From contig JAFMDF010000002.1 in assembly GCA_017857395.1 (NCBI GenBank), positions 1 through 64,000 on the forward strand: a DNA stretch of 64,000 nt. Direction: 5' to 3'. Under the pieces are notes generated by a model. It saw only the letters and a list, made by a program, of their open reading frames with translations, was not told the origin of the DNA and did not search any database. Shown one piece after another: positions 49,894 through 57,841 of the stretch. Positions within the stretch are counted from its first letter, which is position 1. Each line of letters opens with the position of its first letter. This DNA comes from Bacteroidota bacterium. Its GTDB lineage: Bacteria > Bacteroidota > Bacteroidia > Chitinophagales > Saprospiraceae. The position numbers were made by a program, and so were the translations under genes.

Positions 49894-50238
49894 CGAAATG
49901 TTTAATATAAAATGCAAGTTGAGTAGGCTCAAAGCATTTTCTCATAGTTATGTTTAATCTTCCATATTAAATATACTGTAAAAAATAGGACTCTTCCAAA
50001 TATTTAAGCCAATAATTATTTGGTTTAAATTACATTTTTAAAATTAAAATTCGTAAAATATTTATATAATATTGGTTTCATCTCCTCTTTCTTCATTAAT
50101 TTTTTAAAAAAAGTCGATTCTTTAACACTAATATTACTAAAAAATACTATCTTAGAGTAGTTATTAAATACGGGATTAAGACTCAACCATTTGATATTTC
50201 CAATTGTCAATAAATTTTTGTCTTTAATCACTACCAAT
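49894..50238. other. AT-rich region before the HhH gene
   Basis: No supported gene. A minus-strand frame at 50025-50237 is AT-biased, lacks a domain and overlaps the HhH upstream region, so it is not called. No clear promoter box is seen. Confidence 0.35.
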
Positions 50239-51408
50239 ATGAAAACAAATCTAAAAGACTATGCTCATTTTACAAAAGCTCAAGTAAAAGGCATTTTTGT
50301 ACTCGCCAGTATCACTTTACTTTTTTTTATTTTGCCTAAGATTAATTCAAAACTCGCTACTCAAGGAGTGACGGATTTTTCTAAATTCGAAGAAGAGATT
50401 ACAGAATTTGAAACGGCATTAGAAAAAAAGGATGTAGACTCCCCTAGAAGAAACGAGAAACTGCCTAACGCTAATGCTACACTTTTTAGTTTCGACCCGA
50501 ATACTGTCTCCAAAGAAAATCTACTGGCCTTAGGTTTGTCTACTTCGGTGGCAACTACCTTTGTTAATTTTAGGAACAAAGGGTTTAAATTTTACAAAAA
50601 AGAAGATTTAAAAAGAGTTTACGGTATCAAAGAGACTGATTATCAAAGATTAGTACCTTATATAAAAATTGCTAAACCTAAAAAAACTCCTTACTCAAAA
50701 AAGACTAACAAAACTAAAAAACAGCCTAAGCAAAAGGGGCTAACCCCTTTTAAATTTAATCCAAATGAAGCGGATAAAGCTACTTTATTAAGATTGGGGC
50801 TTTCGGGTAAAGTAGTTCAAACGATTATCAATTATCGTAATAAAGGAGGGCGATTTCGGAAAAGAGAAGATTTGAAAAAGGTCTACGGTTTATCAATAAC
50901 TAATTATTTGACTTTAGTAGAATACATTGACTTACCTGAAAAAATAATTCCAATTGCTGAAAAAGGAATAATTCCTAAGGATATACCGCAAAGTTTTGAT
51001 AAAACAGCATCCATCAAAATAGACATTAATAATAGTAGCGTTGAAGATTGGAAACAACTAAAAGGGATTGGAGAAATAACAGCTAAACGAATTGTCAATT
51101 ATAGAGATAAATTAGGCGGCTTCCTATCTATTGACCAACTCAAAACAACATATAATATAGCAGACAGCACCATTGATAAAGTAGCTCATCAATTAATATT
51201 GACACCTATAACCCATAAAATTCCTATTAATTCAATTTCCGCAGAAGCGTTAAAATTACATCCTTACATCAAAAAGAAACAAGCCTACCTCCTTATTAAT
51301 TATCGAACAAACCATGGCGCATATACTCGTCTGGAAGACTTAAAAAAAGTCAAAGCCCTTCCGCCTGATTTTATAAAACGGATTGCACCTTATTTATCTT
51401 TTGAATAA
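50239..51408 (+). CDS. Membrane-anchored helix-hairpin-helix protein, four repeats
   Basis: 389 residues from the ATG at 50239 (MKTNLKDYAHF); the TTG at 50191 would add 16 hydrophobic residues. One membrane helix lies at about 16-34. It is followed by four ComEA-like HhH units with the INSA-type start and the NYRxxxGxF..xEDLKxV pattern (units near 85-145, 175-235, 265-325 and 325-385). HhH units bind DNA without sequence preference, so a role in DNA uptake is possible, but no com genes are near. A similar protein set exists in many Bacteroidota. Confidence 0.8.
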   Translation: MKTNLKDYAHFTKAQVKGIFVLASITLLFFILPKINSKLATQGVTDFSKFEEEITEFETALEKKDVDSPRRNEKLPNANATLFSFDPNTVSKENLLALGLSTSVATTFVNFRNKGFKFYKKEDLKRVYGIKETDYQRLVPYIKIAKPKKTPYSKKTNKTKKQPKQKGLTPFKFNPNEADKATLLRLGLSGKVVQTIINYRNKGGRFRKREDLKKVYGLSITNYLTLVEYIDLPEKIIPIAEKGIIPKDIPQSFDKTASIKIDINNSSVEDWKQLKGIGEITAKRIVNYRDKLGGFLSIDQLKTTYNIADSTIDKVAHQLILTPITHKIPINSISAEALKLHPYIKKKQAYLLINYRTNHGAYTRLEDLKKVKALPPDFIKRIAPYLSFE

Positions 51409-51725: not shown

Positions 51726-51938
51726 ATGTTTATTTTCCTATTAATTGCATTGGGCGTTGTCCTTTTCGGTTCTTGGTTGTACGCCATTATCGAAATTATC
51801 TCCGATGACTATAAAAGTGACACAGATAAATTATTATGGTTCTTGTTGGTTTTCTTTTTGCCCTTTGTTGGGACAATTGTTTATTTCTTGATTGGTAGGG
51901 ATAAAGTGAGTTTGCCACCAGAAAAAGAATATGTATAA
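51726..51938 (+). CDS. Small PLDc_N (phospholipase D nuclease N-terminal type) membrane protein
   Basis: 70 residues with two membrane helices, about 2-22 and 38-58. The pattern LWFLLVFFLPFVGTIVYFLIGRDK is that of PLDc_N, a domain found before PLD nucleases and also as stand-alone small proteins such as this one. No nuclease part follows in frame. It ends in PPEKEYV. Role unknown. A terminator follows. Confidence 0.75.
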   Translation: MFIFLLIALGVVLFGSWLYAIIEIISDDYKSDTDKLLWFLLVFFLPFVGTIVYFLIGRDKVSLPPEKEYV

Positions 51939-52010: not shown

Positions 52011-52043
52011 ATAGCTTTGCATTTTTTTTAGAAAAGTGATTAT

Positions 52044-52691
52044 ATGCTAACGACAACGGTTAAAGCGAGTAGTATTTCCAACTTAACGGATGCCCGATAT
52101 TTTGCGGCATGGCATGTGGAGTGGTTAGGTTTTGATTTGACGGCTGCTGGATTAGCCGTTTTACCTTTGCAAGAAGTAAAAGAAATAAAAGATTGGATTG
52201 AAGGGCCGAAGATAGTAGGAGAATTAGCTATTTTAGACGTCGAAGAAAGTCAACAGATTATTGATTTTCTTTCCTTAAAATATATTCAAGTAGGCATGCA
52301 TACGCCCGTTGAATACCTCAATAGCTTAAACGTTGATGCTATTATTAAAGAAGTGATTATTGAACCGTCCACTACTATTGCCGAAATGAAAGCACATTTG
52401 AGTACTTACTTTGATTATGTCGATTATTTTTTAATCAATTTTGATAAAAATAATTTAGACTGGGCTAGCATCAAAAAAGGAACAACGTTATCTGTTGCAC
52501 AATTACAAGAAATTTGCCAGCAATATGAAGTATTTTTAAATATTGATTTTACCCCCACCAATATCGAAAAAATATTAACGACCATTCAGCCACTAGGTAT
52601 TTCTGTCAAAGGAGGAATGGAGGAAAAAGTAGGACTTAAATCCTATGATGAGTTAGATGATTTATTTGAACTACTGGCAGAAGAAATTTAA
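52044..52691 (+). CDS. TrpF-like (phosphoribosylanthranilate isomerase fold) protein, catalytic residues lost
   Basis: 215 residues. The start VKASSISNLTDARYFAAW aligns with KICGITNLEDA of TrpF, and the end GISVKGGMEEKVGLKSYDELD aligns with the phosphate-binding SSGVE..PG loop. In TrpF the Cys of KICG is the base; here it is Ser9. The general-acid Asp aligns with Asn132 in FLINF. So tryptophan synthesis by this protein is unlikely. No other trp gene is nearby. A specialised binding or repurposed barrel is possible. Confidence 0.7.
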   Translation: MLTTTVKASSISNLTDARYFAAWHVEWLGFDLTAAGLAVLPLQEVKEIKDWIEGPKIVGELAILDVEESQQIIDFLSLKYIQVGMHTPVEYLNSLNVDAIIKEVIIEPSTTIAEMKAHLSTYFDYVDYFLINFDKNNLDWASIKKGTTLSVAQLQEICQQYEVFLNIDFTPTNIEKILTTIQPLGISVKGGMEEKVGLKSYDELDDLFELLAEEI

Positions 52692-53054: not shown

Positions 53055-54581
53055 ATGAAGGAAAGAATCAATAAAATAATGCGTTGGTATTTAAAACAAC
53101 GGATTGGTCGGATTCAAAAATTCATAAAAAATCCGCATGAAGTACAAGCACAAGTACTCAGGGATTTGATTGAAGCAACCAAGCATACACAATGGGGTAA
53201 ACAGTTTGGCTATCGAAGTATTAAATCATACGAAGATTTTGCCAAGCAGGTGCCTGTATCAAGTTATGATGAGTTGAAACCCTACATTCAAAAAATGATG
53301 CATGGGGAGAAAGATATTCTGTGGAGTGGACAAGTTAAATGGTTTTCAAAATCTTCGGGTACGACTAGCGATAAAAGTAAATTCATTCCTGTAACAGATA
53401 GAAATTTATTTTCTAACCATATTCGGGGCAACTGGGACACAATGTCCATGCTCTACCATAATAAGCCTGATGCCAGGGTTTTTGCCGATAAAAATTTATT
53501 ATTAGTTGGTAGTTTAAGTCAATTTGACGCCTATCCTAAAACGACAATTGGCGATATTTCTGCAATTATGGCACATCGCATGCCTGCCGTTGGTCGCCCA
53601 TTTTATGCGCCTGATTTCAAAACGGGCTTGATGAGTGAATGGGAGGAAAAAATTGAGCGAACAGTCGCTTTGACTAAAGATGACCCTGACTTATATATGA
53701 TAGCAGGTGTACCTACTTGGAATATCGTTTTATTTAGAAAATTATTGGAAGTAACGGGAAAAGAAAACATTCTAGAAGTTTGGCCAAACCTAAGTGTTTA
53801 TGTACATGGTGGTGTCGGATTTGCACCTTATAAAGAACAGTTTAAGCGATTTTTGCCAAAAGATGATTTTGTGTATATGGAAGCCTATAATGCCTCCGAA
53901 GGTTTCTTTGCGACCCAGCAATTTTTAGGCGATGAGGATATGTTATTGCTTTTAAATAATGGCGTTTATTATGAGTTCCTTCCGATGGAAGAATGGGATA
54001 GTGAGCACCCAATAGCGATTCCTTTAAAAGAAGTAGAGATTGAAAAAAATTATGCGATGTTGATTAGTACCAATGCTGGTTTATGGCGCTATCGACTTGG
54101 CGACACGGTTACTTTTACGTCTAAATACCCTTATAAAATAAAAATTACTGGTCGAACCAAACAATTTATTAATGCTTTTGGCGAAGAAGTCATGGTCGAG
54201 AATACCGACAAGGCGGTTGCTTTGACTTGTGATGAAACTCGTTCGATTGTTTCCGAATATACGGTAGCTCCTATTTATTTTTCTAAAAATGGAAAAGGCG
54301 GACATCATTGGTTAGTAGAATTCGAAAAAGCACCAGAAAATTTATTGGATTTCACTAAAAGACTAGACAAAAATCTACAGCAAATCAATTCAGATTATGA
54401 AGCCAAGCGCTATAAAAGCATGGCATTGGAGCAATTGCGTATTTCTGTTTTGCCTAAAGATACTTTTCATAATTGGATGCGGGCTAGAGGTAAATTTGGC
54501 GTGCAAAATAAAATACCTCGACTGGCAAATCATCGGCAGTATTTGGAGGAAATTTTGCAGATGGTTAAGGAGAATGCTTAG
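53055..54581 (+). CDS. GH3-family acyl-adenylate ligase-like protein
   Basis: 508 residues, usual for bacterial GH3 proteins. All three nucleotide motifs are present: SKSSGTTSDKSKFIP near 108-122, YNASEGFFATQ near 277-287 and LWRYRLGDTV near 344-353. Plant GH3 enzymes join acids such as indole-acetate or jasmonate to amino acids; bacterial substrates are mostly unknown. Cytosolic. Its stop codon overlaps that of the convergent Clp-like gene by three bases. A functional link to that gene is possible but unproved. Confidence 0.88.
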   Translation: MKERINKIMRWYLKQRIGRIQKFIKNPHEVQAQVLRDLIEATKHTQWGKQFGYRSIKSYEDFAKQVPVSSYDELKPYIQKMMHGEKDILWSGQVKWFSKSSGTTSDKSKFIPVTDRNLFSNHIRGNWDTMSMLYHNKPDARVFADKNLLLVGSLSQFDAYPKTTIGDISAIMAHRMPAVGRPFYAPDFKTGLMSEWEEKIERTVALTKDDPDLYMIAGVPTWNIVLFRKLLEVTGKENILEVWPNLSVYVHGGVGFAPYKEQFKRFLPKDDFVYMEAYNASEGFFATQQFLGDEDMLLLLNNGVYYEFLPMEEWDSEHPIAIPLKEVEIEKNYAMLISTNAGLWRYRLGDTVTFTSKYPYKIKITGRTKQFINAFGEEVMVENTDKAVALTCDETRSIVSEYTVAPIYFSKNGKGGHHWLVEFEKAPENLLDFTKRLDKNLQQINSDYEAKRYKSMALEQLRISVLPKDTFHNWMRARGKFGVQNKIPRLANHRQYLEEILQMVKENA

Positions 54582-57500
54582 AATAATTCCCCATCCAAAA
54601 AACCTTCAAATTCCTTATCCTTATGTTCCAATAAAGGCGAAGCAAAATCTTCTTTATGAATATCTAAAGACCATTTCTCCTGCTTATCTTCTAAAAATTG
54701 AGGATAATAAATCCGTTTAATTGGAATTTTATTATAAAACTCTTTGCGGTGAATGCCATCAGGAATAGAGCCAATTTCAGCAGTCACTTTTACTAAAAAA
54801 CGTTTATCCTCTGGCGGATTTTCTGTTTTGAAAAAATGCAAGCCGCTTTCGCCCTTAAAAAATAAATTTGCACAAGCGCCTTCTATTTTAAAAATGATAC
54901 CGCAAAGAATATCACCATTTTCAGGAGTTATAAATTTAGATTTTGCAGGTTCTGCAAAATCTATCGTCACATATTCTTTTTTTTGATAACGACCTTTTAA
55001 TAGCTCTCCAATTTTATTATCTCCTTGAAAAGGAATCGTAGCCTTATACAAATCTTCTCGATACCAAATTGTTTTTAGAGCTATTTTAAATCCTTTTTTA
55101 TAGGCAATTTGCGTGTATAATTCTTTTAATTTTTGGGCATCTAATCCATAAATCACTAAAAAGGTTTTATTCCCAGCTAGATTGATACGACTATTTAATT
55201 CGATTTTAAACTGAAATAAATCTTTCTGCCAAACCTTTAATTGGTCAGCAATCGTCGCATCGTAAGTAGTCAAGCCCATATAAGCCATGGATACTGCTTC
55301 TTCCTGTTGTTCAATCCGTTCCTTTAAGTCCCGTAAATGTTCTTTTGTTTCTAATAAATAACTGTAGCGTTCTGCATTTTGCTGGTTACTCCAGAATTTA
55401 TCACTTGATTTTTTCTTCTTTCTTTCTAAAATTTCTATCTCACTCAATAAACGAATAAAGGCACTTCCTTCTTCTAATTTAGCCATTCTCCGCCTCAATT
55501 CACTTGCATGATCGGCGTAGTCAATTTTTTCTAATTCTTCTAATAATAAATCTAGTCCTAGTGGGTCTGCATCTATTTCTATAACTATCTTTTCGGCTAC
55601 GACGGCTATATTCGCAATTAATTGGTCTTCATTGTCATACGAATTTAATTCTTGTGCTAAAGGGATAATCAATTGCTCTTTGATGGTTCGTTGTAATTGC
55701 CTTGCTCCATATTCTGGGCTATAGCCAATTTTAGCTAAATGGTCATAAACGTCTTCTGCTAAAGTTAATTCTAACCGTCGAAATTGAATCCCTTCCAATT
55801 TTTTAAATAGGTCGATTTCTCTTTCTACTACATAATGAATCACTTCGCTAGACAAAGGCGCAAAAGGAATCACTTCATCAATTCGACCGACTAATTCTGG
55901 CCTAAAAAATTGTTGTACCGCACTCATAAAATGAGTCGTTACGGCTTCTTCATCGACTGATTGTTTTAAACTAATTCGATTCCCTTGCAAATTAGCTGCC
56001 CCAATATTAGAGGTCATAATAATAATCGTGCTACAAAAATTAACCAACTTTCCACTACTATCCGTCAATCGACCTTCACTTAATACTTGTAATAATAAAT
56101 CAAAGAAATTAGGATGTGCTTTTTCAATCTCATCAAATAATAAAACACAAAAAGGCGCTCTACGAACCGCCGCAGTTAATAAACCATCGACCCCATAACT
56201 TAAACCCGTCAAGCGCATGACAGAATAAGGGTCAGCATATTCACTCATATCGAAACGCACCATTTTATCTCGATTGCCAAACATGAATTTGGCTAAGACC
56301 TTTGCCAATTCTGTTTTTCCAACGCCTGTTGGTCCTACAAATAATAAGGAGGCAATAGGTTTACCTGTTTTAGTTAAAGCCGTTTTTACGGAAGCCAATA
56401 AATCAACGATGCTATTAACGGCACGTTCTTGTCCAAAAACATTATTGTTAAAATCTTGCTTGACTTTCGTTGGATTCATCGGTACTTCAGGGTCCACCAT
56501 AAATAAAGGCATACCTGTTTCTTCGCAGAAATATTGGAGTATTTCTGAACGGTCTAAAATTCTACTTTTTTCTTTTCTATCAACCGCCTTTTGATTGATT
56601 AAAATACTTTCTAAAAAACGAATCGGTTTGCCTGGTAAACCCGCATAAGGCGTAAATCGTCGATTCAATCTCAAGGTCTCTCTAATGGCTTCGGTCTCAA
56701 TATTAATGCGCCGAGTACTCGCTAAATTTTGTACTTTTTTTACAATGATTTCTTCTAATTCTTTCCGAGGTTCTTCTAAGCGAATAATTTGGAAAAAAGA
56801 TAAATAATTAGGGCTGCGCAATTCGATTCTTGCCATTTCTTCCTCCGTACATTCTGAAATCAAAGTGACTTCCCCTCGACCAATAAAAGAGCGCATATAG
56901 TCCGCCATACTTACACTATTGCCTTCGTATTGTCCGACCTCAAATAATTCCATAAAATTTCGGACAAAGAGCACATCCTTCGTACTAGCCAATTCTTTAC
57001 AGACGATAGCTAGTCCATCTTGCCATCCTGTATTTCCCGTTAATTCCTTAATCATGACCGAAGCAGTTGTTTCCCAAAAATCGCCTTCAATTTTTCGGTC
57101 TTTTTTCTGCCGCACCATTTCCCAGACCAAAGCCGTTTTGCCAACTCCCGATGCGCCAACCAATAAGACATTTCTATTAAATTTACCTTTTAAGGCTTTT
57201 TCTAATTGTTTGAGTGTTTCTTTTCGACCATAAACAACTTGACGGTCTATCTTTATTTGATGCGCAATTTTAGGTAATAATAAATCTTGTTTGCCATCTT
57301 GTAAAGCCTCCAATTCCTTTAGGTTTGGAAACTGAAAGTCTATATTTTGCTGCTCCATTTCTACCGCATCATGCCAAATACTGGCAATAATAGCATGAAC
57401 GGATTTTAATCGTTGTTTCCGAGCAAACTCCAAATGAATGGCATCTGCTAAGTTTTCTATTAATTTATCTATACTGTTGGCAAAAGTTTCAATACCCAAA

Positions 57501-57841
57501 ACTGGTACGATTCCCCAATATCCTTTGTCTCCTAACTCATTGAAAAAAAAGTCAAATACTAATTCAAAAGCAGGATAACTAATGCCATCTTTAGCGGCCT
57601 GTAGACTAATCTCCACTTTGTCTTGCTGATAATCCCCTTCTACATATTCATTTAAAATCTGCTGATAATCGCCTTTATTCAGTATTTTTTGCTGAAAAAC
57701 TTCGGCATATTTGCCTGCTAATAAATGGAACGATTCGTTTAGCCGAATAGCATCCGCATCCATCATCGGTACCCGAATGGTATTTTCCTGAAAGAAAGAC
57801 AATTTGAAAGCATAAAAAGGAATGGAAATCGTATAAGCCAT
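54578..57841 (-). CDS. Clp-type AAA+ ATPase with a C-terminal release-factor PCRF-like domain
   Basis: 1087 residues. 1-200: unrecognised N-domain, not the Clp_N repeat. About 200-440: first AAA+ module, Walker A GASGVGKT (229-236); the Walker B acidic pair is replaced by Arg294-Asn295 (VRNFMELF for IDELHTL), and the Arg-finger region is also changed, so hydrolysis is unlikely. About 465-755: second module, intact: GPTGVGKT (503-510), LLFDEIEKAH (567-576), TSNIGA (610-615), GAR at 712-714. About 775-1025: helical hairpin, then LVIYGLDAQKLKELYTQIAY-KKGFKI and FKGESGLHFFKTEN, which by eye follow RF1/RF2 (IHAGAGGTEAQ-DWA..RGFK and ETGVHRLVR). The GGQ domain is absent. Function unknown; probably an unfoldase-like machine with a ribosome- or protein-binding tail. 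Confidence 0.8.
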   Translation of the reverse strand: MAYTISIPFYAFKLSFFQENTIRVPMMDADAIRLNESFHLLAGKYAEVFQQKILNKGDYQQILNEYVEGDYQQDKVEISLQAAKDGISYPAFELVFDFFFNELGDKGYWGIVPVLGIETFANSIDKLIENLADAIHLEFARKQRLKSVHAIIASIWHDAVEMEQQNIDFQFPNLKELEALQDGKQDLLLPKIAHQIKIDRQVVYGRKETLKQLEKALKGKFNRNVLLVGASGVGKTALVWEMVRQKKDRKIEGDFWETTASVMIKELTGNTGWQDGLAIVCKELASTKDVLFVRNFMELFEVGQYEGNSVSMADYMRSFIGRGEVTLISECTEEEMARIELRSPNYLSFFQIIRLEEPRKELEEIIVKKVQNLASTRRINIETEAIRETLRLNRRFTPYAGLPGKPIRFLESILINQKAVDRKEKSRILDRSEILQYFCEETGMPLFMVDPEVPMNPTKVKQDFNNNVFGQERAVNSIVDLLASVKTALTKTGKPIASLLFVGPTGVGKTELAKVLAKFMFGNRDKMVRFDMSEYADPYSVMRLTGLSYGVDGLLTAAVRRAPFCVLLFDEIEKAHPNFFDLLLQVLSEGRLTDSSGKLVNFCSTIIIMTSNIGAANLQGNRISLKQSVDEEAVTTHFMSAVQQFFRPELVGRIDEVIPFAPLSSEVIHYVVEREIDLFKKLEGIQFRRLELTLAEDVYDHLAKIGYSPEYGARQLQRTIKEQLIIPLAQELNSYDNEDQLIANIAVVAEKIVIEIDADPLGLDLLLEELEKIDYADHASELRRRMAKLEEGSAFIRLLSEIEILERKKKKSSDKFWSNQQNAERYSYLLETKEHLRDLKERIEQQEEAVSMAYMGLTTYDATIADQLKVWQKDLFQFKIELNSRINLAGNKTFLVIYGLDAQKLKELYTQIAYKKGFKIALKTIWYREDLYKATIPFQGDNKIGELLKGRYQKKEYVTIDFAEPAKSKFITPENGDILCGIIFKIEGACANLFFKGESGLHFFKTENPPEDKRFLVKVTAEIGSIPDGIHRKEFYNKIPIKRIYYPQFLEDKQEKWSLDIHKEDFASPLLEHKDKEFEGFLDGELF

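Follow-up and report, generated by a model that had tools for sequence, protein, structure and literature searches.

What does a relative of TrpF do once the TrpF active site is gone? The question is raised by an open reading frame (ORF) in the stretch of Saprospiraceae DNA analysed here, 64,000 nucleotides long and referred to below as the window. It was first posed by a first-pass annotation of the interval 52068-52439, which runs from the first base of the Ser9 codon to the last base of the Asn132 codon and is not the whole gene. The features needed for the argument are listed below. Conservation counts in the list, and in the text unless another base is given, come from a joint alignment of the family with a reference set of 48 TrpFs (25 of the type nearest to the family and 23 of the Bacteroidia type), and are based on 80 of the 106 family rows, namely those of at least 195 amino acids.

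51726-51938: upstream flank, a PLDc_N protein of 70 amino acids
51982-52007, forward strand: hairpin with a T run after it, in the gap that separates the PLDc_N gene from the gene of the TrpF relative (-17.7 kcal/mol, z -3.5)
52044-52691, forward strand: the ORF, a TrpF relative without the TrpF active site (215 amino acids, ATG start)
52068-52070, forward strand: Ser9 codon, in the column of the catalytic Cys (Cys in 48/48 TrpFs and 0/80 family rows)
52080-52100, forward strand: N-L-T-D-A-R-Y, start of helix alpha1 (L14, A17 and R18 in 80/80 family rows and 25/25 nearest active TrpFs)
52194-52205, forward strand: W51-I-E-G54, end of helix alpha2 (W and G in 80/80 family rows and 25/25 nearest active TrpFs)
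52221-52223, forward strand: Glu60, end of strand beta3 (71/80 family rows, 0/48 active TrpFs, 47 of which have Val)
52437-52439, forward strand: Asn132 codon, in the column of the general-acid Asp (Asp in 48/48 TrpFs; Asn in 23 and Asp in 22 of 80 family rows)
52542-52547, forward strand: Ile167-Asp168 in place of the beta7 Gly-Gly (both Gly kept in 0/80 family rows)
52611-52640, forward strand: beta8-alpha8 loop, G-G-M-E-E-K-V-G-L-K, residues 190-199 (from the family and joint alignments)
52641-52679, forward strand: helix alpha8, residues 200-212, acidic (median net charge -5 in the family, -2 in the nearest active TrpFs, 0 in the Bacteroidia type)
53055-54581: downstream flank, a GH3-domain protein

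The hairpin between the PLDc_N gene and the ORF is read as a terminator; none of 200 shuffles reaches its energy, and it is absent from the list of a consensus terminator scan. A promoter-like motif, TANNTTTG, at 52012-52019 was given no weight, as it has 98 copies in the window against 96 expected. Farther out, a protein with four helix-hairpin-helix matches is encoded upstream (50191-51408, forward strand), likewise in the relatives L004-L007, and a ClpB-like AAA+ protein of 1087 amino acids occupies 54578-57841 on the reverse strand.

TrpF homology and the active-site columns

The ORF protein scores 29.8 bits against the Pfam model PRAI (PF00697), above the curated cut-off of 22.7, and the same model matches 36 of 58 family members at E values up to 0.01. 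The four NCBIfam TrpF models listed give 15.9-35.5 bits against cut-offs of 172-216 (35.5 against 215 for the best of them), which is below the equivalog level. In a profile-profile comparison, the family profile aligned over its full length with six TrpFs of related genomes (99.3%, E 7e-21). Further, a profile of 58 members searched against solved structures found the Thermotoga TrpF at E 4.8e-15 (1dl3) and 7.7e-15 (1lbm), and all seven chains below E 0.001 are TrpFs. HisA and PriA share the barrel class of TrpF and carry out a related reaction; neither has a chain among the solved structures listed for the family profile up to E 10. Judged by these profiles, the ORF protein is a TrpF homologue, beyond chance; the first-pass annotation had named a profile search without any TrpF relation as grounds for abandoning its reading, and the relation was found. 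As for an eight-unit barrel, the profile aligns with TrpF from end to end, a fold model computed from five sequences (the window protein and those of L004-L007) has a mean pLDDT of 41, too low for use, and 19 of 106 members have at most 185 amino acids.

The columns counted are those that we take to be the residues of TrpF catalysis and phosphate binding, the beta7 Gly-Gly being assigned to the phosphate. The annotation had described a TrpF-fold protein without both catalytic residues, with Ser9 under the Cys of the KICG motif and Asn132 under the general-acid Asp, and both profiles and alignments bear this description out. Cys fills its column in every reference TrpF and in no family row. Asp fills the acid column in all 48 TrpFs, and the family has Asp in 22, Asn in 23 and Glu in 11 of its 80 rows; one pairwise phmmer alignment puts Asp134 of the window protein there, and the multiple alignments put Asn132. 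The Arg column (48/48 TrpFs) retains Arg in 3/80 family rows and is Ala in the window protein, and the His column (47/48) retains His in a single row and is Gly. Each beta7 Gly is present in 48/48 TrpFs; the first is kept in 0/80 and the second in 7/80 family rows. None of the 80 rows keeps the beta8 Asp or the beta8-loop Ser, each again in 48/48 TrpFs; the window protein has Ser and Gly190 at these positions. Over seven columns (Cys, Arg, His, Asp, the two beta7 Gly and the beta8 Asp), 47 of the 80 family rows keep no residue and 33 keep one. Judged by its residues, the ORF protein is not a working TrpF.

Two further statements of the annotation fared less well. The phosphate loop was said to be kept, which is true of Glu193, Gly197 and Lys199 in the beta8 loop and untrue of the beta7 Gly-Gly and of the loop Ser. 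The protein was also suggested to bind a phospho-sugar or to be a sensor. A phosphoribosyl ligand is unsupported: the Arg, His, beta7 and beta8 columns are mostly or wholly lost, as counted above, and what constraint is left is concentrated in alpha1, alpha8 and the end of alpha2. Pseudoenzymes in general are conserved homologues that have lost their catalytic residues while the gene was kept. A literature search by titles and abstract starts, with subscription journals mostly outside its coverage, found no paper on a TrpF pseudoenzyme or on such a family.

Family distribution and the tryptophan pathway

With the window protein alone as the query, matches were obtained in 138 of 150 Saprospiraceae genomes. 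Five of these, counted by search score alone, have a best E value above 1e-5 (G012, G069, G101, G105 and G119), and for G012, G069 and G105 the TrpF search gave no TrpF match. A profile search of the remaining 12 genomes gave matches in seven, of which five are family members by reading of the sequences (G004, G024, G044, G088 and G145); the matches in G077 and G129 were dropped as family members, the sequences being ordinary or K-I-C-C TrpF. The total is thus 143 of the 150 Saprospiraceae genomes sampled, and members occur in other Bacteroidia too. In a class-wide search, 100 of 395 genomes had a match: 84 matches (hand count) start at profile position 13 or earlier, close to the N-terminal signature, 36 of which were read individually (L108-L143), and the other 16 start at position 21 or later and resemble ordinary TrpF. 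One match per genome is usual, with two contigs matched in G059 and G075. A search of viral contigs confirmed no relatives there.

The 106-row alignment was built from loci chosen non-randomly, for long contigs and a spread of score, and excludes duplicates of a locus already included, L078-L107, active TrpFs and members identified afterwards. L14, A17 and R18 are invariant in the 105 of its rows with a letter there, W51 is present in 106/106, and G54, E193, G197 and K199 are present in 105, 101, 103 and 87 of 106, respectively. Between the window gene and its relative in L004, dN is 0.09 and dS 0.78 (dN/dS about 0.12), which implies that most protein changes are removed, that is, purifying selection among close relatives. 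The neighbouring GH3 gene, compared with the same relative, has a dN of 0.027 and a dS of 0.91, so its protein changes more slowly. A stop codon interrupts two of the listed matches (G121 and G134). Three of the five members added by the profile search (L181, L184 and L185) are very degenerate, 147-162 amino acids long, with little left beyond A-R and W-x-E-G-P.

The genome that carries the ORF has other TrpF-like genes. The annotation had asked for a second, complete trpF, and one is present (L001, 120.7 bits) that retains Cys, Asp and Gly-Gly. The K-I-C-C type is represented by a third TrpF-like gene (L002:536-1204, 80.3 bits), which also has Cys, Asp and Gly-Gly; this type was observed in other Saprospiraceae as well, alongside the ordinary TrpF. 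The remark that no other tryptophan genes lie near holds for TrpC, the sole trp gene looked for: a TrpC-like ORF is found in none of 81 family loci, window included. Adjacency to trpC is usual for TrpF, though not obligatory, and the family gene lacks it throughout these 81 loci.

Among the 150 Saprospiraceae genomes, 29 have no TrpC match, 26 have no TrpF match at E 1e-9, and 25 have neither. A single-sequence search finds the family in 19 of these 25 genomes, against 119 of the 125 others (Fisher p 0.006). Many genomes that lack the pathway have thus kept it, but at a lower rate than genomes that have the pathway. Put as misses, the figures are 6/25 against 6/125; two of the six, G044 and G145, hold a degenerate member by profile, which brings the misses down to 4/25. 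An example is G057, a genome in two contigs and 99% complete, which has no TrpC or TrpF match and a clear family member (E 1.8e-40). On this pattern of presence and absence, the family gene is independent of tryptophan synthesis, and its near-universal retention, even in many genomes that no longer make tryptophan, implies that it probably has some other job. For annotation, the consequence is that a widespread Bacteroidia protein can pass the Pfam cut-off as a tryptophan enzyme though its residues disagree. In three of 30 genomes (G879, G887 and G889) a family member is the sole PF00697 match, so that pathway predictions can be wrong.

Origin of the family and remaining constraint

A phylum-wide search with the family profile found, outside the class, TrpFs with complete active-site columns at 124-175 bits. 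They carry the family signature A-R plus W-x-x-G, which is shared partly by choice, as these TrpFs were selected by their match to the family profile. TrpC lies directly before 14 of the 14 nearest-type TrpFs that were fetched with wide flanks; the Bacteroidia-type TrpF is near TrpC in 4/4 (L144-L147) and 13/16 (L151-L166) loci. When the family rows were scored against four TrpF profiles, all 106 scored best with that of the nearest active TrpFs (built from 25 sequences), with a median of 91 bits and 115 for the window protein. The medians are 18 bits with the Bacteroidia type (23 sequences), 42 with five other TrpFs (5) and 3 with the K-I-C-C type (9).

Trees agree with the scores in part. 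In a 42-row tree without K-I-C-C sequences, a branch supported at 99/93 separates the family and the nearest TrpFs from the other rows, and the family itself is recovered as a single group (100/100). In a 66-row tree that includes the K-I-C-C sequences, this branch is not recovered: the K-I-C-C rows are placed within the nearest TrpFs, for which a common group appears in 4% of bootstraps. A tree constrained to unite the family with the Bacteroidia type is worse by 7.25 log units (AU p 0.038). A duplication from the Bacteroidia-type TrpF was therefore set aside, weakly rejected by the AU test and more clearly contradicted by the profile scores. R18 and W51, once considered novelties of the family on a comparison with Bacteroidia and Thermotoga TrpF, were also dropped in that role because the nearest active TrpFs have both; in the joint alignment, the W51/G54 motif at the end of alpha2 is unconserved in the Bacteroidia-type TrpF.

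Two kinds of TrpF can thus be set beside the ORF protein. With the subtype that has N-L-x-D-A-R and W-x-x-G and stands after trpC in other classes (PF00697, EC 5.3.1.24), it is homologous over the full length and has L14, A17, R18, W51, G54, E193, G197 and K199 in common. It differs in that Cys, Arg, His, Asp, the beta7 Gly-Gly, the beta8 Asp and Ser are replaced, in that the ORF is away from trpC, and in that the middle of the barrel is shortened in some family members. The Bacteroidia TrpF (K-V-C-G-M type, here L001) is also homologous and occurs in the same genome, but its active site is complete and it is usually near trpC; the ORF protein scores 26.5 bits with this type against 115 with the nearest subtype. 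As far as sequences can tell, the closest relatives found are the complete TrpFs of the phylum's other classes, and the Bacteroidia have a different TrpF by trpC. These comparisons suggest, as the simplest history, that in Bacteroidia another TrpF displaced the older one of the phylum, which moved out of the operon and lost catalysis while its gene was kept.

Where constraint remains was examined unit by unit, with borders set by hand from the TrpF structure. The ratio of information content in the family to that in the nearest active TrpFs is 1.09 for alpha8, 1.01 for alpha1, 0.92 for the beta8 loop and 0.81 for alpha2, against 0.49-0.77 in the 13 other units measured (all strands and alpha3-alpha7); for these ratios the family was subsampled to 25 rows, and it is the more divergent set (mean identity 0.31 against 0.51). 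In the barrel geometry, alpha8, alpha1 and alpha2 are neighbours. Among the 19 of 106 rows with at most 185 amino acids, beta1-beta3, alpha1, alpha2 and alpha8 are full; the fill is 0.35 for alpha5 and 0.26 for loop 6. About 150 residues are probably too few for eight full barrel units. On a quickly built tree of 81 members, with 53 of its 94 inner branches open, the length class shifts 16 times.

Possible roles and neighbouring genes

We favour, with moderate confidence, the reading that the gene is a displaced trpF whose protein has lost catalysis and is kept for the contacts that it makes. The gene stands apart from trpC, and the TrpF active site is missing. The protein would work without TrpF chemistry: a face formed by the neighbouring helices alpha8 and alpha1 and the end of alpha2 would contact a partner or another copy of the same protein, and the barrel mouth and helices alpha3-alpha7 would be free to vary and to shorten. 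The nearest active TrpFs conserve these helices to the same degree, so the contact may predate the loss of catalysis; it may have been a second job of the old enzyme, left over once another TrpF took the reaction. A fuller version, which we consider possible but less likely than not, is that the ancestral TrpF already had a non-catalytic role on the alpha8-alpha1-alpha2 face and that only this role survived, the barrel having eroded mid-way to about 150 residues in many lineages with the face kept. Two observations speak against the contact reading. The signal in alpha8, alpha1 and alpha2 may be a plain folding need at the closure of the barrel, and Glu60, absent from all 48 active TrpFs, hints at a new pocket through its link to Lys7 and Gln82.

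Such a pocket is the subject of another explanation, in which the remodelled barrel mouth would have a new ligand, perhaps one with positive charge, or perform other chemistry via Lys7, Glu60, Gln82 and Glu103. We regard it as possible, if doubtful. Glu60 and Gly190 are present in 71 and 73 of 80 family rows and in 0/48 active TrpFs each, and Lys7 is associated with both Glu60 and Gln82 (Fisher 2e-6 and 3e-11). However, out of about 105 rows, 74 have Lys7 and 85 have Glu60, so that each is missing in many members, and the short members are without parts of beta5-beta6. The association of Lys7 may reflect shared ancestry, for which a control found at most 3 independent pairs on starred branches and so had no power; K7-E60-Q82, associated in the raw table, was for the same reason not adopted as a new catalytic set. 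The first-pass idea of a sensor or binder of phosphoribosyl compounds can point to the full-length TrpF homology and to Glu193, Gly197 and Lys199 of the beta8 loop, which are mostly kept. It nevertheless appears improbable in view of the beta7 Gly-Gly, the beta8 Asp and the Ser (0/80 each) and because, of 25 genomes that lack both TrpC and strong TrpF matches, 19 carry the family.

Decay of a functionless gene would account for a protein that changes faster than its GH3 neighbour (dN 0.09 against 0.027, same relative), for the 16 changes of length class and for the internal stops in G121 and G134. It would not account for a family found in 143 of 150 genomes, for L14, A17 and R18 in 105/105 rows with W51 in 106 and G54 in 105 of 106, or for a dN/dS of about 0.12 to L004, and we consider it very unlikely. 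Least credible of all is an ordinary TrpF that works with other residues. The window protein does exceed the Pfam PRAI cut-off, but a complete TrpF is encoded elsewhere in the genome, the best NCBIfam TrpF score is 35.5 bits where 215 is required, and the Cys is absent in 80/80 rows. If the history of a displaced enzyme is true, active and dead forms of one lineage in one phylum would offer a direct test of the roles of an enzyme other than its reaction. The shortened members would be natural experiments on how much of a TIM barrel is removable.

Among the loci compared, GH3 lies directly downstream in the window and L004-L007 alone. The direct neighbour seen most often is an alkyltransferase-like gene (PF01035), divergent and upstream in 20 of 79 loci (for example, L045, L047 and L123) and occurring in Saprospiraceae and other loci. 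Among 30 alkyltransferase-like ORFs near family genes, PAHRV or a close variant occurs in 25, PCHRV in one and no motif in four; the 20 TrpF loci examined contain no such ORF. The gene was not adopted as a partner. In the genome to which the window belongs, the PAHRV gene is on another contig. In seven loci outside the Saprospiraceae (L115, L117, L119, L121, L123, L125 and L130), a gene of about 220 amino acids (cluster c10), which presumably resembles TrmB, lies near the family gene.
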